Shown: positions 51,366 to 61,676 of the stretch, one piece after another
How positions within the stretch are numbered: position 1 is the first letter of the stretch
Layout: every line of letters starts with the position of its first letter
NCBI GenBank assembly: GCA_945877575.1
Contig: CAMDUE010000002.1
Span: 62,001 to 126,000, forward strand
Source of the DNA: Chitinophaga pinensis
GTDB lineage: Bacteria; Bacteroidota; Bacteroidia; NS11-12g; UBA955
Reading direction: 5' to 3'
Length of the DNA stretch: 64,000 bases
The notes under the pieces: model-generated
Databases searched by the model: none
What the model was told of the DNA's origin: nothing
Seen by the model: only the letters and a program-made list of their open reading frames with translations
Position numbers and translations under genes: made by a program

Positions 51366-52526
51366 TCAATTGGAGAGTCTGGATTTCCGTATAAGGTATT
51401 GCAACATTCTCAGATATACTAGAATCACGGGAAAAACCTTCATTTGAGACGTTTCTACGATCCAAAACCTAAAACTTCTAGGATAGACATCTGTTGGACC
51501 CAAAACGGTCAATAGAAGCACCAAAACAAGCAAAAATACATCAACCTGCGTTAACTTATCAATGAGCAAATAGAATGCAACAATTGAACCAACAGCAATG
51601 ATAAAAGTGGCCGACTCCGCCATATGATTAAAAATAACCACCCAAACACCCCAAGTAAGTCCGTAGTAGATGATCAATTCTTTCCGCTGACGAATAAAAA
51701 AAGCCAAAATCAACTGAATGCACAGTGCAAACAATAAGGTTAGGCTTTTGTTTGGCAGGAGGTGAAACCAGCTTTGCATCCATCCCAAAACAGAATATTT
51801 TACAAAATAGCCACCATCGCTTTTTAAAAGAATGAACCATCTGAGGTATTGGGAGATCAAATAATCCCAAGAAACAAAAAACAGTGGTAGCGAGAAAAGA
51901 ACTGCAAATTGAATAATAGAGCTTAGAGCAATTTTTAACCAATGCCTTCTATGAAAAAGAAATAGGGTAAACAGTACCAGGCCAAAAATTTTAATAAAAC
52001 CAGTCAAAAGGATGCAAAAAACTGCCGAATGCCATTTTTCACGCTGATAAAACACCAGTGTCCATAGTATTAAACCCAATACAACCCCGTTGCTTTGACT
52101 GTTGAGCATGGAAGTAGAGGATTCAACAGCGAAAAACACAAACAAATAAAGCCATCTACTTTTGTGGGTTGAAATTAGCTGGGTTAATGCCAAAAAGGGA
52201 AGAATTACATTCAACGAATTCCAAAGGAATAGTCCAAAAAAATCATTTCCTATAGCGAAAGGGGCGAATAATAAAGCAAATGTGGGTGTATATTTAAAAA
52301 CATCGTATTGAACTGGTCCGTAGGTTTCGAATAGGGGTAATGACAGCAGTAGGTGATAAAATGAATTCTTAAATATCAGAAAGTTATTGAATAATGTTAC
52401 GGGAAAAGGAATGTCAGGAACTCTACTCAATGGGGCATTAATGTTCTTTAGAGTAATTCCCATCGACAGTAGAACCAAAAATATAAGTGCAGTTTTAAAG
52501 CGAGGGGCGAGATTTTTACCTGACAT
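51366..52526 (-). CDS. Second GT87-like polytopic membrane protein
   Basis: 386 residues from ATG 52526 (MSGKNLAPRFKTALIF); the longer frame to 52571 was rejected because it runs into the terminator hairpin. About nine membrane segments. The loop after helix 1 and the text YDVFKYTPTFALLFAPF resemble the Y-x-P-P region of GT87/DUF2029 polyprenyl-phosphate-sugar transferases, but the acidic residue pattern is weaker than in the gene at 10112-11404. The function is therefore inferred from topology. It is not in an operon: terminators lie on both sides. Confidence 0.65.
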   Translation of the reverse strand: MSGKNLAPRFKTALIFLVLLSMGITLKNINAPLSRVPDIPFPVTLFNNFLIFKNSFYHLLLSLPLFETYGPVQYDVFKYTPTFALLFAPFAIGNDFFGLFLWNSLNVILPFLALTQLISTHKSRWLYLFVFFAVESSTSMLNSQSNGVVLGLILWTLVFYQREKWHSAVFCILLTGFIKIFGLVLFTLFLFHRRHWLKIALSSIIQFAVLFSLPLFFVSWDYLISQYLRWFILLKSDGGYFVKYSVLGWMQSWFHLLPNKSLTLLFALCIQLILAFFIRQRKELIIYYGLTWGVWVVIFNHMAESATFIIAVGSIVAFYLLIDKLTQVDVFLLVLVLLLTVLGPTDVYPRSFRFWIVETSQMKVFPVILVYLRMLQYLIRKSRLSN

Positions 52527-52552: not shown

Positions 52553-52587
52553 AAAAAAAGGCTGCCCCCATTGAAGGAAGCAGCCTT
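52553..52587 (-). terminator. Intrinsic terminator ending the adhesin locus
   Basis: An 8 bp stem AAGGCTGC/GCAGCCTT (52558-52565 with 52580-52587), 14 base loop, followed on the minus strand by TTTTTTT. It lies just after the OmpA-family gene. Confidence 0.88.
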
Positions 52588-52605: not shown

Positions 52606-55600
52606 TTATCTAACGCGTTTTCCGTTTTCAAATTTCACAACAAAACAATCTTTGAAGGTTTTTGTACGCAGTGCAGTTTTATACTGTTCTGCTTCTTCTT
52701 CGGTTTTGAATTGTCCGGCTGTGTATTTGAAATAAGGACCGTCTTGATATTCGTATACATCTCTAAGTCCAAAAGCTTGTAATTTACCAATGCTCATTTT
52801 GGAAGTAGACATAGCTACTTGAACACGATAAACAACACCTTTGGTATTCTGACTGGTTGACTTTACACTGCTAACAGGGGCTGGTGCGCGCTCCTCAACG
52901 GTTTCCTGTGCAGGAGCTGGAGCAGCTTTTGGAGGTGTTGATTTTCCAGATTTAGCAGTTGGCACCTTGTCACCTGGGTAATTTTTATAGTTCGAAGGAG
53001 ACTCATACTTATCTGGAATACCATCTTCGTCAGAATCAGTATCAATATAATCAGGTTTACCGTCTTTATCTGTATCAACTGTACCCTCAACATTGTCAGG
53101 AATACCGTCATTATCAGAATCAGTATCTAGATAGTTTGGTTTACCATCATAATCTACATCTTTAGTGCCTTCTTCGGCGTCGGTTAATCCGTCATTATCA
53201 GAATCATTATCTAAGAAATTTGGAGTACCGTCGTTATCAACGTCGCCTCTACCTTCAACACTATCCGAAACACCATCACCATCAGAGTCTAGGTCTAGAT
53301 AATTGGGTTTACCATCACCATCGGCATCATTAATTCCTTCGGTTTTATCTGAAATACCATCGTTATCAGAATCAGTGTCTACATAGTTTGGTTTACCGTC
53401 TTTATCAAAGTCCATTCCGGTTTCAACAGCATCAGGAATACCATCGTTGTCTGAATCTTTGTCAATAAAGTTGGGCAAGCCATCCATGTCAGAATCTTTT
53501 CTTCCTTCAGAAGCATCTGGAATACCGTCATTGTCTGAATCTGGATCTAAATAATCAGGAATTCCATCGTTGTCTGCATCGCCTACGTTCATGGTGCCTT
53601 GTTTAAGATCTTCTGGTCGGAAGCTCTTAGGAGAATTCATGGCCATTTCATCTTCAGCAGAAACCGTACTTCCTTGTTTATTACTAGTACCCGCTTTAGC
53701 CTTGGCTGTGGCTGCAGACGCTGTTGAACCAGTTGAAGCTTTAGGAGCAGCAGCTTTTGCTAAAGTAGGAAGAGGTTTTGAACCCTTTGGAAGTTTCTTG
53801 CCACAAGGAATGATGCCTTTTATTAAATATTCAGTTCTACGATTGGCTTGGTGCTCGTTATCAGAGCATTCTACACCGTCAAAACAGCGATTCAATACTC
53901 TGCTTTCACCAAAACCTTTGTAACTTAATCTTTCAGCTTGAATGCCTCTATTTGCTAAATATAAATAAACCGATTTTGCTCTGTTTTCAGACAATTGAAG
54001 GTTGTATTCATTCGAACCACGTGAATCTGTGTGTGAACCCAATTCAACCATAAGGTTAGGATTGTCATTCAATACAATTACAACTCGTTCTAATTCTTCC
54101 TTACTTTGTTGGGTTAATTCAAAGCTATTTAGCTCGTAATAGATGGGTTTCACATCAAAAATAACACCCAAATCTTCACCTACTCTGTAACGCTGTGCTT
54201 TAACCTTTACCACTCTCTGACCTTGAGCATTTACGTCAAACTCTGTGGTAGATGAATATTTATAACCGCAGGGACGAGTAGTCACTTGAACTTTCGCTTC
54301 TTTTGGAAGATCTTTTCTGGTGATCATTCCATCTGCATTAGTACTATCATTGAAAGCATTTGCATCATCCGAAAGGTTGTCGATAGCCACTTTTATGCGA
54401 GGCATTGGTTTACCCGTTTCATCGTCAACCACCATAACAATGATTTCGTCATTGGTGGGTTGTTTTTCAGACTTATTATCTTGGAACCATTTGAAGTAAT
54501 AAAGATTATCGTCAAACGATTTCGATTCACGATTAGAAGACATGGTTCCCCACATGTCATTCATTTCTGGGGCAAAGTCATCCATGTTTGAATTGATGGG
54601 TTTACCCATATTCAAGATCATGTTTGAATTTTTATCTACGGTGAAAACGTCCAATCCACCAAAGCCTAAATGTCCCTCAGAAGAAAAATAAAATTCGCCA
54701 TTTTTTCCAAAACGAGGGAAGTTATCTCTCAACATGGTATTGATTTGGGGACCCATGTTCACCACTTCGCCAATCAAGATACCTTGTTCTTTGTTTGCAA
54801 TGATGGGCGCTTCGTAAAGGTCTGACTTGCCAAATCCGCCTGGCATGTCAGATACAAAAACCACTTTTTTACCGTCTGGAGAAATCACCAAATCAGAAAC
54901 CGAGTAATTATCATTGTTCAATTGGAAGGGAAGTTCTATCCATTTGTTGGTTTTGCGGTCTTTCTTTACAGCAAAAATTTGCAATACCTTTTCTCTGTTT
55001 TTATTGAGTTTAGGAGCATTTCTAGTGATGTATAACCATCCGGTTGCTGAATCAAAACAGCTCACTTGTTGGTGAACCCTTGATTTATTGAAGGTCTCTA
55101 GTTGAGATCTTGAAATGGCGCTATCTAAAAACTTCGCAGAGTAAACATTGTAATAGCCTTGCTCATGGCTAGAAGAGAGAATCTTCCATAAGCCAGTATT
55201 TGACTTGTGCTTTGAATAGAATGCAAGGCCTTTTTTATTGGAAACTAAAGCAAATTCACCCTTACCAGAATTTTGATCAAACGGCTTGAAGTAATAATTG
55301 GAAGCAAAATTAAATTCCGCCCAATAATCTTCGCGCTTGTCTTTATTCTGAAGATAAAAAGGATAAGTCAACTCTTCAAATAAAGGAAGTCCGTTAAAAG
55401 TAGAATCTTTTAAAGTCAATAAAATACTGTCTGACAAACCGTAAAGCTGCATATTACGAGCTGAAAGCGCGTAATAGAGTTTATCTGTTGCATTAACTTG
55501 AGTAGGATATCTTTCCAACAGTTCGTAATAGGCATCGTAGGCCTTGTCAGGCATATTCATTTGTGCATATGAATAAGCTAAAACACGTTGATTGGTATAG

Positions 55601-55755
55601 TCTTTTTTCTTTGCTGAGGACTTAAACTCGTTTAAGCGTGCAATTTCTGAGAACTTATGCTGACTTAACAACTTAACCACTTTGGATTGAGACCAAAGTT
55701 GTGTTGCGAACAACATACTCAATGTCCAAACGCCAATTTTTATATTCAATTTCAT
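52606..55755 (-). CDS. OmpA-family protein with PD40, type 3 calcium repeats and SPOR domain (PorE-like)
   Basis: 1049 residues. Order: signal peptide (ends LWSQ, residue 23); helical TPR-like region to about 130; PD40/WD40-like propeller (for example VVFVSDMPGGFGKSDLYEA) to about 420; a carboxypeptidase-regulatory-like beta domain to 520; an OmpA domain at 535-650 (LGSHTDSRGSNEYNLQ, with the Asp and later Arg that bind peptidoglycan); an Ala/Lys linker; about seven thrombospondin type 3 calcium repeats at 725-916 (DSDNDGIPD); and a SPOR domain at 970-1046. TPR, propeller, regulatory domain and OmpA together are the layout of T9SS protein PorE. It is the last gene of the adhesin locus and probably anchors the machinery to peptidoglycan. 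Confidence 0.92.
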   Translation of the reverse strand: MKLNIKIGVWTLSMLFATQLWSQSKVVKLLSQHKFSEIARLNEFKSSAKKKDYTNQRVLAYSYAQMNMPDKAYDAYYELLERYPTQVNATDKLYYALSARNMQLYGLSDSILLTLKDSTFNGLPLFEELTYPFYLQNKDKREDYWAEFNFASNYYFKPFDQNSGKGEFALVSNKKGLAFYSKHKSNTGLWKILSSSHEQGYYNVYSAKFLDSAISRSQLETFNKSRVHQQVSCFDSATGWLYITRNAPKLNKNREKVLQIFAVKKDRKTNKWIELPFQLNNDNYSVSDLVISPDGKKVVFVSDMPGGFGKSDLYEAPIIANKEQGILIGEVVNMGPQINTMLRDNFPRFGKNGEFYFSSEGHLGFGGLDVFTVDKNSNMILNMGKPINSNMDDFAPEMNDMWGTMSSNRESKSFDDNLYYFKWFQDNKSEKQPTNDEIIVMVVDDETGKPMPRIKVAIDNLSDDANAFNDSTNADGMITRKDLPKEAKVQVTTRPCGYKYSSTTEFDVNAQGQRVVKVKAQRYRVGEDLGVIFDVKPIYYELNSFELTQQSKEELERVVIVLNDNPNLMVELGSHTDSRGSNEYNLQLSENRAKSVYLYLANRGIQAERLSYKGFGESRVLNRCFDGVECSDNEHQANRRTEYLIKGIIPCGKKLPKGSKPLPTLAKAAAPKASTGSTASAATAKAKAGTSNKQGSTVSAEDEMAMNSPKSFRPEDLKQGTMNVGDADNDGIPDYLDPDSDNDGIPDASEGRKDSDMDGLPNFIDKDSDNDGIPDAVETGMDFDKDGKPNYVDTDSDNDGISDKTEGINDADGDGKPNYLDLDSDGDGVSDSVEGRGDVDNDGTPNFLDNDSDNDGLTDAEEGTKDVDYDGKPNYLDTDSDNDGIPDNVEGTVDTDKDGKPDYIDTDSDEDGIPDKYESPSNYKNYPGDKVPTAKSGKSTPPKAAPAPAQETVEERAPAPVSSVKSTSQNTKGVVYRVQVAMSTSKMSIGKLQAFGLRDVYEYQDGPYFKYTAGQFKTEEEAEQYKTALRTKTFKDCFVVKFENGKRVR
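53007..53580 (-). repeat. Tandem type 3 (calcium-binding) repeat array in the OmpA gene
   Basis: About seven coding units of 25-27 codons with the core DxDxDGxxD (forms such as DTDSDNDGIPD and DTDKDGKPDYID). The near-identical units are visible at DNA level and could recombine. Confidence 0.85.
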
Positions 55756-55775
55756 GTTCGTTCTTCTTAAAAAAA

Positions 55776-56723
55776 TTAGAAATATCGAGGAGCTCTTACA
55801 CGGGCATTTGAGACATAAGGAATCATGAATTGCAAACCAAACTCATGAGATCCATTTACATAATTATTCAATGGTGCCAAACGACTATCATACGAGTAGA
55901 CCAATGTAAAATTAGGATTTACTTGAGCCATGGCCATAATACCCATTTCGCCACCAGTTCTAAAGAATCCACCCAAAGAATAATTCTCTTTGTAGATGGC
56001 ATGCACATTGATGTCAGCTTGAACTGGAACACCTTGAATCACACGTACCTGAGTGGTAGGTTTAATCTTCAAATCTGTTCCCGCATCAATCACGTATCCA
56101 GCAGTCAGGTAATACTGTGTAACAGCAGCGTACTGAACATCCATATTTTTACGGTTGTCTGCTGAGATGAATAACATTCTAGGTGCTGAAACTCCTGCAA
56201 AGAAGTTATTGGTGTAGGCATAAACCCCAAAGCCTGCCATGGGCGCAGTAACATTAAAGTCGTTGTTTTGGAAGGCAACGTCACCAGGCTTGTCAATTTG
56301 CAATTGAGATAAGTTTAGACTGTAATTGTATGCTCCTAAACGAAGACCAACTGCCAATCTCAAATCGCCTGTGATTTGCTTGTTCCATGAACCAGACAAA
56401 CCCAATTGAGTTTCAGTCATTGGACTAGCTGTTTTGAATTTACCAATGGTACCGGTTTGAATGTTGATACCTCCACCAAAGTCGCCTACCAAAGGAGAAT
56501 GAACTCCTAAGTTGTAATAACGTGGTGCGCCCGGTAAATTCAACCATTGTGTGCGTACCAAACTATTTGCTACCAGCGTTTGCTTAGAACCTGCATAAGC
56601 TGGATTCACTGCGAATGAGTTATAGTCGTAGTGTGAATACATCTGTTCTTGCTGAGCCGTTGCTTGAGAAACCCAAGACAAAGCGGCGGTGAATAACAGT
56701 TTATATATGATATTCTTGTTCAT
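55776..56723 (-). CDS. PorP/SprF-family outer membrane protein
   Basis: 315 residues with a signal peptide ending near ATAQ. The family opening QMYSHYDYNSFAVNPAYAG is diagnostic of PorP/SprF, and the remainder is an outer-membrane beta-barrel ending at VRAPRYF. SprF-type proteins are needed for secretion or attachment of SprB-like T9SS type B adhesins. This gene lies 36 bp after the 1584-residue adhesin gene and 20 bp before the OmpA gene, the standard sprB-sprF arrangement, so it is probably dedicated to that adhesin. Confidence 0.95.
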   Translation of the reverse strand: MNKNIIYKLLFTAALSWVSQATAQQEQMYSHYDYNSFAVNPAYAGSKQTLVANSLVRTQWLNLPGAPRYYNLGVHSPLVGDFGGGINIQTGTIGKFKTASPMTETQLGLSGSWNKQITGDLRLAVGLRLGAYNYSLNLSQLQIDKPGDVAFQNNDFNVTAPMAGFGVYAYTNNFFAGVSAPRMLFISADNRKNMDVQYAAVTQYYLTAGYVIDAGTDLKIKPTTQVRVIQGVPVQADINVHAIYKENYSLGGFFRTGGEMGIMAMAQVNPNFTLVYSYDSRLAPLNNYVNGSHEFGLQFMIPYVSNARVRAPRYF

Positions 56724-56759
56724 TTCGTGATTTTTTAAAATTTAACTAAACTGATTTGA

Positions 56760-59700
56760 TTAACGTTTGATGTAGAAGTTACCGGTAATTGGCTCTCTGT
56801 TTTGTCCGTTGTATTTGAACACATAGAAGTACACTCCTTCTGGTAAATCTTTACCCAATGAAGGAATACTACCTGCATATGTACCATCCCACTTGTTATT
56901 ATAACCTGTACCCGACTGATAAACCACTTGTCCGTTACGGTTAAAGACTATCAACTCAGCCTTGTCAAATACTTTCAATCCCTTAATATATAGTTCATCG
57001 TTATCGCCGTCACCGTTTGGTGAGAAAGCTTCAGGTATAATTACTTCAGCATCACGATAATCTGGAATTGTGTTTCCGTCAGAATCTTTAGTACCTTCAA
57101 CCGAGTCATTGATTTCATCGTTATCAGAATCTGTATCGCGGAAGTCCATAACTCCATCGCCATCAGTATCTACTGGTTTGGTTGGATCTGCACCCGCTTC
57201 AGTTTTGTCGTCAATTCCGTCATCGTCAGAATCTAGATCGCGGTAATCTTGATCACCATCTCCGTCAGTATCTACAGGATTGTTCGGATCTGTACCAGCT
57301 TCAACCTCATCTGGAATGGTATCGCCATCAGAGTCAAGATCAATATAATCTTGTTTACCATCTGAATCGGTATCAACAGGATTGGTTGGATCTGCACCCG
57401 CTTCTTCTGTATCGGGGATTTTGTCTCCGTCAGAATCAACATCGCGATAGTTCTCAAGGTTATCTCCATCGGTGTTTACTGGGGACGCTGGATTTGCTCC
57501 GGCCTCCACTTTATCTGGAATTAAATCGTTATCAGAGTCAGTATCAACGTAGTCTTTTTTACCGTCATTGTCTGTATCTATAGGATTGTTCCCGTCTTTC
57601 GCTTCGTAAGAATCTAAGATGGTATCATCATCAGAATCGGTATCGCGGTAATTTGGTAGATTATCAGAATCTGTGTCTACAGTTCCTTCAATACTATCTG
57701 GAATGGTATCGTTATCTGAATCAGTGTCAATATAATCAGCTGCATTGTCTGAATCTGTATCTGCGGGTACTGCATCTCCAGCATCTCCAAATGTGGCAGA
57801 TCCATCGGCATTATCAATAATGCCATCTCCGTCAGTGTCTGTTCCGTCTACAATACCGTCAGCGTTTGCGTCTGTGTAGGCTTGAAGACTTTCAACTAAA
57901 TCAAAAATATTATCGTTGTCTGAATCCAATTCACGTTGATTTCCAATACCGTCGCCATCGGTATCCACTGAAGCAAAAAACAAATCAGAAGCATTATCCT
58001 TCAATCCATTTTGATCAGCATCTGCCAATCCGGCTTCGCGAACATCATTGATGCCGTCGTTATCAGAATCCAAATCTTTATAATCAGGACGGGTATCTAC
58101 GTCAGAATCTACTAAAATTGCGCCGTTGTTGTTTTCCAACTTATCGGCAAGTCCGTCGTTATCAGAATCTTCATCGAGGTAATCTTTGGTACCATCTTTA
58201 TCAAAATCACCGCCTTTTTCTATATGGTCAGGAATTCCATCGTTGTCAGAATCGCCAATTACCACAGTAACTTTAACGGTTTTCTTCACCAAGTTACCGC
58301 TCTTATCGGTCAGTGTTATATCAACGTTGTTATCACCCACATCTGCCAATCCAAACAAGGTTTTACTGATGATGACTTGATAGGTAGCACAGTTGTCAGA
58401 GATGCTGATTACAACCATACCTTGAGTCAAAAGTGCGTTGCCTGCAGTATCTATGTATATGGTGGCGTCTTGGGTAGTTAAAATTGGATTAACCTTATCA
58501 TTCACTGTCACTGAAATTTGGGCAGAATCAATATTACCGTTTAGGTCTTCTGCATAGAACCAGATTTTGTGTAATCCTAAGTTAGAACAATCAATGGTTG
58601 AATCGCTCATCCATCTGCGTTTGATGGAACAATTGTCTTTGGTTCCGCCGTCAACGTCCGTGATGGTAAGTTGTCCTGTGCCGTTTGCATCAAGATCCAC
58701 AACGGGTGATTTCAAGAAAATGACAGGTGCAAGGGTGTCTAACACAAGTACTTTTCCAGTATCTTTAGAAATATTACCGTTTTTATCTGTTACCGTAATG
58801 ATGATTTGTACTTGTTTGCCTGCGCTATTGCAGAAGAACTGATTGTTATCTATAGAAATGCTTGCAATTCCGCAGTTATCTGTAGAATTTACACCAGCCT
58901 GAGCACCTGTGATGTTAACCACACCTGCACTATTCAAATAAAGTGTATCAATAGATATTTTGGCTATGGGCGCTAAAGTATCAAACAAGGTCAATTCAAA
59001 GCTATCGTTTCTGGAGTTCCCGGAAGGATCCAAAACCGAAACATAAACTTTATTCAATCCAACATGAGTACAATTAAATACTTCGGTTGAGTATGATGTG
59101 TCTGCGATGCTGCAATTGTCGCTTGCGAATAGAATTATACTATCGCCCTCAATGGTGTATTGTCCGTTTGCGTCAAGATAGGCGGTGAAATTCTTCCGTA
59201 CTAGTAGGGAATCTGGCTTAAATGTATCCAACAGAAGCACTTTAACGGTATCTCTGGAAACATTTCCAGAAGGATCTTCCACAAAAACAATAAGGTTGAA
59301 AAGTCCAGCTTCTTTGCAATCAAAGGTGCTATCTGACATGTATACTTTCGATATACCACAATTATCAAGTGCGCTCGCGTAAACATCTAAGAGTGTTATG
59401 GTATCTGCTCCATTGGTATCAAGATAACGAGTAATTGAATCAGCTGTTATAATTTGGAAAGGGAAGAATGTGTCTCTAACAATGATTTCAACGTCTTTAG
59501 AAAGAGAATTACCGGAAGCATCTTTCACGGTAACAGTATACATATTACTACCAAGGTTTGAACAATCAAATTTGGTTTTCATGATGGTATCAGTGATGCC
59601 GCAATTATCAGAAGCAAACAACATGATAGAGTCCTTCGAAACAAATGCTTGTCCAAATGAATCAAGATAAAGAATGGTATCTCTAACTTGGAGTGAATCG

Positions 59701-61514
59701 GGTTTCCTTGTATCTAAAACTGTAACCTGAATGTCTTTATAGTTAACATTTCCAGAAGAGTCTTCAGCATAAATTCTAAGAGTGTTTACTCCCTTTTGAT
59801 CGCAATCGAAGGTAGTATCTGTGCCGGATGCCCAATAAACCTTCAACTTTCCTTTGCTGCAAGAGTTATTATCCGTAACCGATAGCAACACATCTGCCAT
59901 TGACATGGTATCTGCGCCGTTTGAATCTAAATTACGAGTCACATTTTGCACGGTCATTGCCGGTCTAGTAGTGTCGAGTACAAGGACTCTTATTAATTTG
60001 TTGGACTTATTATTGGAGTAATCAGTCACTTCGAAGTTACCAGAGTCAAGTCCTAAATGTCTGCAGGTCCAAGCATATTGGAAGATGGTAATTGATTTAA
60101 TGGAGCAGTTATCAGTAGAAGCACTATCGGTTTCAGCCGCCGTAAGTGTATATAGTCCATTATTATCTAGGTATACTTTGGTAAGATACTTAGGAAGAGC
60201 TTTCGGCGCGGTCACGTCTCTAACACGAACATTTGCAGTGGCGCTATGGGAGTTGCCGTTTGAGTCTGTAGCCGTTAATGTTACTGTTATTCCAGTAGCA
60301 CCAGTATCAGCGCACGAGAATGTGGTTTTATCGAGGGATAATTTAAAGGCGCAGTTATCTGAAGTCGGATTACTAACATTGTCAACTTGTGCCGGTGTAA
60401 TGGTCACGTTTCCGGTGTTATCAAGGTCAACAACAATGTTTTGGGTTTTAACAACCGGGGCGGTGTTGTCTGAATGTTTGATAATTACTTCTTCCGTTAC
60501 CAAACAGCCTTGCTTATCCTTTATATCAACAAAGAATGTATCATCTACTAATGAATTATAACTGGAGGTAGATATAAATATACCCGTTTGACCAAAATCA
60601 TAAGTAAATGGAGAACCATTTCCTCCTGTTGGTGTGAAACCCAAAGTCCCAGAACCATAACAAACTGAATTTGTAATTGTTGTATTAGTTGCTATTTGTG
60701 CAACTGGCCCTAATACATTTACGTTCTGATTAACTACACAACCACTATCATCTTTAATAAAGACATTATAAGAGTTTACAATCAAACTATTAAAAGTTGA
60801 ACTAGATTGATATGTACCTGTACCAATTTTGTATTCATAAGGTAATGATCCACCTGAACCGTTAACAGTAATTTCACCATCACTTAATCCATAACAAGTC
60901 ACATCCTTTTCGGTCGTCGTAAATGTTAACTGAGATGGTTGAATAATTGTAACTTTCAATGTATCCTCGCAACCAATATCATCTTTTACTCTTAGATCAA
61001 CATCTGCTGCCGCTCCAAGACCAGTAAAATCTGTGCTTGATTGAAAGCCAATTGGGCCTAGTTTATATTGAAAATTTGTATTAGTAGAACTTGTTGTTGT
61101 CGCCTTAGCTTTTAAATACCCATCAGTTGTATTGAAGCAACTTACATCCTTTTTCTTGTCAATCGAAACTATCAAAGAGTAGCTGTTAGATAATGTTGTC
61201 GATTGGAATGTAACATTCCCAGAACCATCTTCTACATACACTTTATATAATTTACCTGATAAATTATTGAATGTGTAGGTCGAAGCTCCAGAAAGCGCTA
61301 CCATAATTGGAGTTGTACCTGTAGAATCTAAGCCGATTTTTGTAAAAGTTGACAAATTAGAGGCTATGATTTGTCCATCCCTTTTTGTTTTACATGTTGG
61401 ACTAACATCTGTTAAAATCTGCCCACTCGCAGTGCCGGCTAAAAACAAAAAAGTTGCTACCGATATTCCCGATAACAACTTCCGCTGTGCGCGTTTGATT
61501 ATATTAAATCTCAT
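56760..61514 (-). CDS. SprB-like giant T9SS type B adhesin with calcium repeats
   Basis: 1584 residues from ATG 61514, which gives the signal peptide MRFNIIKRAQRKLLSGISVA and cleavage near TASGQ; the open frame reaches 61661, but that 49-residue extension lacks a signal. Residues 33-348 hold SprB-like repeats (DVTCYGLSDGEITVNGSGG). Residues 349-1086 are nine HYR-like Ig repeats of about 80 residues (each with VxLDxNG and SDNC). Residues 1087-1488 are a long run of type 3 calcium repeats (DTDSDND). The C-terminal domain from IIPEAFSPNGDGDND to GNFYIKR is the gliding-motility type B sorting domain. It should be displayed on the surface for adhesion or gliding. Confidence 0.92.
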   Translation of the reverse strand: MRFNIIKRAQRKLLSGISVATFLFLAGTASGQILTDVSPTCKTKRDGQIIASNLSTFTKIGLDSTGTTPIMVALSGASTYTFNNLSGKLYKVYVEDGSGNVTFQSTTLSNSYSLIVSIDKKKDVSCFNTTDGYLKAKATTTSSTNTNFQYKLGPIGFQSSTDFTGLGAAADVDLRVKDDIGCEDTLKVTIIQPSQLTFTTTEKDVTCYGLSDGEITVNGSGGSLPYEYKIGTGTYQSSSTFNSLIVNSYNVFIKDDSGCVVNQNVNVLGPVAQIATNTTITNSVCYGSGTLGFTPTGGNGSPFTYDFGQTGIFISTSSYNSLVDDTFFVDIKDKQGCLVTEEVIIKHSDNTAPVVKTQNIVVDLDNTGNVTITPAQVDNVSNPTSDNCAFKLSLDKTTFSCADTGATGITVTLTATDSNGNSHSATANVRVRDVTAPKALPKYLTKVYLDNNGLYTLTAAETDSASTDNCSIKSITIFQYAWTCRHLGLDSGNFEVTDYSNNKSNKLIRVLVLDTTRPAMTVQNVTRNLDSNGADTMSMADVLLSVTDNNSCSKGKLKVYWASGTDTTFDCDQKGVNTLRIYAEDSSGNVNYKDIQVTVLDTRKPDSLQVRDTILYLDSFGQAFVSKDSIMLFASDNCGITDTIMKTKFDCSNLGSNMYTVTVKDASGNSLSKDVEIIVRDTFFPFQIITADSITRYLDTNGADTITLLDVYASALDNCGISKVYMSDSTFDCKEAGLFNLIVFVEDPSGNVSRDTVKVLLLDTFKPDSLLVRKNFTAYLDANGQYTIEGDSIILFASDNCSIADTSYSTEVFNCTHVGLNKVYVSVLDPSGNSRNDSFELTLFDTLAPIAKISIDTLYLNSAGVVNITGAQAGVNSTDNCGIASISIDNNQFFCNSAGKQVQIIITVTDKNGNISKDTGKVLVLDTLAPVIFLKSPVVDLDANGTGQLTITDVDGGTKDNCSIKRRWMSDSTIDCSNLGLHKIWFYAEDLNGNIDSAQISVTVNDKVNPILTTQDATIYIDTAGNALLTQGMVVISISDNCATYQVIISKTLFGLADVGDNNVDITLTDKSGNLVKKTVKVTVVIGDSDNDGIPDHIEKGGDFDKDGTKDYLDEDSDNDGLADKLENNNGAILVDSDVDTRPDYKDLDSDNDGINDVREAGLADADQNGLKDNASDLFFASVDTDGDGIGNQRELDSDNDNIFDLVESLQAYTDANADGIVDGTDTDGDGIIDNADGSATFGDAGDAVPADTDSDNAADYIDTDSDNDTIPDSIEGTVDTDSDNLPNYRDTDSDDDTILDSYEAKDGNNPIDTDNDGKKDYVDTDSDNDLIPDKVEAGANPASPVNTDGDNLENYRDVDSDGDKIPDTEEAGADPTNPVDTDSDGKQDYIDLDSDGDTIPDEVEAGTDPNNPVDTDGDGDQDYRDLDSDDDGIDDKTEAGADPTKPVDTDGDGVMDFRDTDSDNDEINDSVEGTKDSDGNTIPDYRDAEVIIPEAFSPNGDGDNDELYIKGLKVFDKAELIVFNRNGQVVYQSGTGYNNKWDGTYAGSIPSLGKDLPEGVYFYVFKYNGQNREPITGNFYIKR
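57051..58256 (-). repeat. Tandem type 3 (calcium-binding) repeat array in the adhesin gene
   Basis: About 1.2 kb coding for roughly 15 Asp-rich units (DTDSDNDTIPDSIEG, DLDSDGDTIPDEVEAG and similar). The last units also share the phrase EAGADPTxPVDTDGDG. It resembles the array in the OmpA gene downstream and may vary in copy number. Confidence 0.85.
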
Positions 61515-61598
61515 TTCTGAATGTTTTACTGATTTTTCTAGGGTTCCCGTTATTCTCATGCTCTCTATATGATAGTCATCGACTTGGCCGAATTTTAA

Positions 61599-61606
61599 CA
61601 AATTTA
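61599..61606 (-). promoter_or_regulatory. Possible -7 box (TAAATTTG) for the adhesin operon
   Basis: An exact TAnnTTTG on the minus strand, 84 bp before the chosen ATG at 61514, within the 242 bp gap to the next gene. The long leader and absent -33 keep this tentative. Confidence 0.35.
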
Positions 61607-61676
61607 ATACTTCTTTCATAACTGCTTTTTCACTGTATAATAAAACAGACAAAAACGACATTCATGCCTTTCTATC

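Follow-up and report, generated by a model that had tools for sequence, protein, structure and literature searches.

Organization and conservation of the locus

In this work we have analysed a stretch of 64,000 nucleotides (C2:62001-126000, called the window below) from a Bacteroidia genome of 2.5 Mb that is 99.9% complete, and specifically three genes at 52606-61514 on its minus strand. According to the list of open reading frames and the domain profiles, these encode, in order, a long surface adhesin, an outer-membrane barrel of the PorP/SprF family and a PorE-like protein with an OmpA domain. The gap between the adhesin and PorP genes is 36 bp and that between the PorP and PorE-like genes is 20 bp, and an intrinsic terminator with a 12-bp stem and a T tract follows the third gene (52558..52587, minus strand). 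The same order on one strand, with these gaps and a single terminator after the last gene, had been proposed in an earlier note on this DNA, and it was borne out by the reading frames and by the one strong hairpin at 52587-52558. Past the terminator lies a gene for a GT87 glycosyltransferase (51366..52526, minus strand; PF09594, 54.2 bits), which begins a separate unit and is not part of the three-gene unit. It adjoins the PorE-like gene in every ortholog locus that extends that far, and its product is a candidate that could act on surface glycans or on the adhesin.

Relatives were gathered by a match to the full-length PorE-like protein and the ortholog loci were then inspected. In 13 other genomes of the same family the gene order, the spacing and the flanks are kept, as far as the contigs allow. 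Where the contigs reach, the order is DUF92, adhesin, PorP, PorE-like, GT87 and a convergent pnp, the position of the last being taken by an unrelated ORF in two loci of the same genus. The gaps inside the three-gene unit are about 1-36 bp across the ortholog loci. Of the 13 loci that could be tested, 12 have a terminator at this position 3' of the PorE-like gene, whereas 0.11 would be expected from dinucleotide shuffles, and the stems of the ortholog terminators, which have 8-12 pairs, differ in sequence. This comparative evidence indicates that selection has maintained termination 3' of the third gene and not inside the unit. The Bacteroidota -7 motif TAnnTTTG was matched once upstream of the adhesin in the window and not at all in seven relatives; it is not conserved.

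The adhesin

The adhesin gene (56760..61514, minus strand) codes for a protein of 1,584 aa. Its longest reading frame spans 56760-61661, and the likely start is 61514, where the Sec signal peptide begins, as the earlier note had placed it. Matches to CHU_C (78.5 bits) and TIGR04131 (50.6 bits), both above their cut-offs, and the signal peptide, which was recognized by inspection, mark the protein as a type B substrate of the type IX secretion system (T9SS). Its N-terminal part holds a divergent SprB-like repeat region (60495..61409; PF13573, 34.3 bits), followed by nine HYR-like Ig-fold repeats of about 83 residues each (58257..60470), a stalk of about 400 aa made of Asp-rich, TSP3-type calcium repeats (57051..58256), and the type B C-terminal sorting or targeting domain (CTD; 56763..57050), all on the minus strand. 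Most of the HYR-like repeats hold one Cys pair. The Pfam HYR profile (PF02494) did not match the window adhesin, and 4 of 33 repeats matched it weakly. A model of a single repeat (pLDDT 94) matched the folds of Ig-like domains, including PKD, Rib and SraP, so that HYR-like is fair as the name of a fold. The SprB-like repeat, the nine HYR-like repeats by count and the calcium repeats had all been predicted correctly; the suggestion that the adhesin is larger than SprB was wrong, since 1,584 aa have to be set against the 669 kDa of SprB (PMC7807042).

Identity to the orthologues falls from the CTD, the most conserved part of the protein (55-73%, and about 70% within the genus), through the TSP3 stalk (50-64%) and the Ig-like repeats (25-45%) to the SprB-like region (20-36%), and the length of the stalk is constant within the genus. 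An adhesin would be expected to show this pattern, in which the CTD and stalk are conserved and the tip diverges. The protein thus appears to combine a fixed base with a changing tip, and the SprB-like repeat region is likely to be the part that binds. We infer the adhesive function of this protein from its homologues or its domain make-up.

The barrel and the secretion machinery

The second gene (55776..56723, minus strand) encodes a barrel of 315 aa that ends in ...APRYF and belongs to the PorP/SprF family, with both PF11751 (166.7 bits) and TIGR03519 (181.5 bits) above the cut-off. The genome also has SprA (2243 bits), PorK/GldK (524 bits) and PorV, PorU, PorL, PorM and PorN, the last five again above the cut-offs, so that an absence of the T9SS core, named in advance as fatal to the proposal of an adhesin unit, is excluded. 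A GldJ-like gene, at 370.7 bits, stays below the cut-off of 458. Gliding tracks may therefore exist in this organism, and we count this against a static adhesin.

Could the adhesin be a mobile, SprB-like gliding adhesin which its barrel carries along the GldJ/GldK track? It has a type B CTD and a PorP/SprF partner, it contains an SprB repeat, and both GldJ-like and GldK genes are present. SprF, however, is covalently tied to GldK of the moving track via a cysteine pair in its C-terminal tail (PMC12635249), whereas a scan for cysteines found none in the window barrel, which has neither the C-tail nor the Cys-X-Cys that forms the disulfide bond with GldK in SprF proper. Among 14 barrels of this type, the mature part is free of cysteine in 13, and the C-tail is free of it in all. 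PorE-linked barrels sampled elsewhere are likewise without the twin-Cys pair, with a single late Cys in one family. Furthermore, the unit includes a PorE-like gene, whereas in Flavobacterium johnsoniae no PorE homologue accompanies the genes of the mobile substrates that were tested, and the substrate Fjoh_3952, which is PorE-linked, is static (PMC12618676). A barrel without the SprF tail, together with a PorE-like partner, points to the static class and not to SprB/SprF gliding. We therefore regard a mobile adhesin as unlikely and, because the barrel has no SprF cysteines, dropped it as the leading idea; the parallel to SprB and SprF drawn in the earlier note is not supported.

Another PorP gene, located beside PorU, PorV and a GldJ-like gene (L036:10950-13754), encodes a barrel with two late cysteines 12 residues apart. 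It is a candidate for a track-linked barrel, though this spacing differs from the Cys-X-Cys of SprF.

The genome contains 27 type B CTD matches and only six PorP genes, which means that most of the type B substrates have to use a shuttle in common with others, and crosstalk with a shared shuttle for orphan CTDs has been described in F. johnsoniae (PMC12618676). Is the window barrel then a shuttle for several type B substrates, with the operon merely its main producer? Against such a role, the gene immediately preceding that of the barrel is always the adhesin gene, and the CTD of the adhesin shows high conservation. We look on a shared shuttle with some doubt, as a possibility that is partly compatible with a stationary adhesin unit.

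The PorE-like protein and its tail

The third gene (52606..55755, minus strand) codes for a protein of 1,049 aa with a Sec signal peptide and no lipobox, whose best match among the PDB structures is PorE (6top). It is matched by the OmpA, PD40, TSP_3 and SPOR profiles. The PorE domain order of TPR, beta-propeller, regulatory and OmpA domains is present, the TPR and regulatory domains falling below the Pfam cut-offs and being seen in the model. The peptidoglycan-binding OmpA_C domain (53884..54141, minus strand; PF00691, 63 bits) is closest to Porphyromonas gingivalis PorE 6top by both sequence and fold search. Its residues D577, N585 and R592, which are invariant in 13 orthologues, align with Asp576, Asn584 and Arg591, the peptidoglycan-binding residues of PorE in P. 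gingivalis (PMC7192894). Two results count against a PorE-like anchor. The PorE family model NF052230 gave 206.9 bits, under its cut-off of 600, and inspection of 10 PorE-like signal peptides revealed no lipobox, whereas PorE is a lipoprotein.

It might be asked whether this protein is simply the core T9SS PorE of the genome, serving all secretion, and adjoins the adhesin by chance. The TPR, propeller, regulatory and OmpA domains are those of PorE, and the OmpA domain is nearest to 6top. The linkage to the adhesin is nevertheless conserved, a second cassette in the genome carries a PorE-like protein of its own, and the protein at C13:14110 fits the PorE model far better, with 383.7 bits against 211 bits for the window protein. 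This better match led us to reject the core-PorE identity, which we consider very improbable.

Past the OmpA domain the window protein continues with a tail of about 400 aa, which consists of a disordered linker, seven TSP3-type units (53002..53589, minus strand; PF02412, 51 bits; match to thrombospondin-1 at E 1.7e-4), a second linker and a C-terminal SPOR domain (52609..52836, minus strand). The earlier note rightly recognized a PorE-like OmpA protein and overlooked the TSP3 repeats and the SPOR domain. Seven TSP3 units were counted in nine of ten orthologues. The isolated tail scores 29.0 bits with the SPOR family profile PF05036, whose cut-off is 21, and a SPOR match at E 0.1 or better was obtained in 12 of 13 orthologues. 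The modelled order of strand-helix-strand-strand-helix-strand is compatible with SPOR. When the tail was compared by profile with solved structures, no SPOR chain was matched; the SPOR match is modest and we count this against our main reading. Gene conversion between the TSP3 repeats of the adhesin and those of the PorE-like protein was rejected, the similarity being 0.579 within the same genome and 0.579 with other genomes.

Full-length tails occur in 13 genomes from three genera, and a contig end cuts the copy from a fourth genus. In a phylum-wide sample of 296 genomes we kept homologues outside the family at E 1e-50, and the TSP3/SPOR tail was absent from all 55 of them: 52 lie in ORFs of at most 727 aa, which leave no room for the tail, and the other three, which are longer, stop at the OmpA domain. 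The homologues recovered from the sample outside the family measure about 650 aa and have OmpA as their last domain, and the order type B substrate, PorP, PorE was the same in five of the six loci that we opened. The second cassette of the window genome (C3:219-223 kb; L104, L039) likewise encodes a PorE-like protein, of 626 aa, without TSP3 or SPOR. It also includes a PorP gene and a type B adhesin with TSP3 repeats, the latter cut by the contig end; in relatives (L098-L103) it comes after a further ORF upstream of an adhesin of roughly 2,000 aa.

In another Bacteroidia family (L121, L124-L126) the PorE-like tail is matched by the SPOR profile and has no TSP3 repeats. The genes concerned lie 3' of those for type B and PorP proteins, and such tails would represent an independent or an intermediate state. 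Proteins of about 970 aa in another family (L116-L118) have a tail matching the SPOR profile, which in L116 follows DUF5723 and OmpA domains; we take these to be a different type of wall-anchored outer-membrane protein. The survey thus indicates that PorE tails vary, with no addition, with SPOR, or with TSP3 plus SPOR.

In the open-licence literature we found no published description of a PorE tail with TSP3 and SPOR. There, searches joining SPOR, OmpA and type IX secretion gave nothing beyond work on T2SS, and those joining SPOR, OmpA and Bacteroidota, or thrombospondin type 3 and T9SS adhesins, gave no result.

A probable stationary adhesin anchored to the cell wall

Taken together, we think it probable that the locus encodes a stationary, cell-wall-anchored surface adhesin unit. 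The sequence itself shows the genes and their domains, the T9SS core, the conservation of synteny and terminator, the peptidoglycan-binding residues and the lack of the SprF twin cysteines. Published homologues suggest that the products form a complex, depend on T9SS for export and are immobile. The adhesin would cross the inner membrane via Sec and the outer membrane via SprA, the shared T9SS translocon, and its type B CTD would then be passed to the PorP-like barrel from the next gene, which would serve first as shuttle and afterwards as surface anchor. It would bind the PorE-like protein in the periplasm, and the OmpA domain of the latter would hold the diaminopimelate of peptidoglycan. Outside the cell, the calcium-stiffened TSP3 stalk and the nine Ig-like repeats would bear the fast-diverging SprB-repeat tip, which would do the binding. 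The earlier description of the locus as a dedicated surface-adhesin export unit agrees with its synteny, spacing and terminator and with published complexes (PMC9143113, PMC12618676) as far as dedication is concerned. The word export is too broad, because the export itself goes through SprA, a shared translocon, and the genes encode a substrate, a shuttle or anchor, and a wall tether.

As to the tail of the PorE-like protein, the simplest guess is that it makes a second contact with the wall, beyond OmpA, the spacer of seven TSP3 repeats ending in a SPOR domain with putative binding to glycan. Perhaps, and we suggest this tentatively, the anchor has two points, with OmpA on peptide stems and a calcium-rigidified TSP3 spacer taking SPOR to denuded glycans, in which case one would expect the adhesin to be concentrated at division sites or new poles rather than cell-wide.

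What decides whether a type B adhesin is assigned to the moving or the fixed class is a topical question. Of the marks that can be read from a genome, two, a linked PorE homologue and a barrel without a twin-Cys tail, both point to a fixed adhesin here. The conservation of the TSP3 and SPOR tail points to an additional contact with the wall in some Bacteroidota, through which surface adhesins would be bound to particular sites in it. What is gained is a variant of a described kind of locus, together with a testable prediction.

Comparison with known systems

Loci of this three-gene kind have already been described in related bacteria, and it is the TSP3 and SPOR tail of the anchor protein that is variant. 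F. johnsoniae has five operons with a type B substrate, an SprF-like shuttle and a PorE homologue, for example Fjoh_3952-3951-3950 (PMC12618676). They contain the same three types of genes in the same order, and a static wall-anchored complex has been proposed for them. The window locus, where a single operon holds the substrate, PorP and the PorE homologue as judged from genes, synteny and terminator, fits this published static class by analogy. The difference is that its PorE-like protein adds the tail of about 400 aa after OmpA. In P. gingivalis, PorP binds both a type B substrate and PorE, giving a PorE-PorP-PG1035 complex (PMC9143113). The window locus shares with it the type B substrate, the PorP barrel and a peptidoglycan-binding PorE-like protein with the Asp, Asn and Arg residues. 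PorE of P. gingivalis is, however, a lipoprotein essential for T9SS, whereas the window protein lacks a lipobox and another protein of the genome is a better match to PorE. SprB-SprF of F. johnsoniae likewise combines a type B adhesin containing an SprB repeat with an adjacent cognate PorP/SprF barrel. SprB, at 669 kDa, is mobile, is linked through the SprF-GldK disulfide and has no PorE neighbour, whereas the window barrel has no cysteine in its C-tail and is encoded together with a PorE-like partner.
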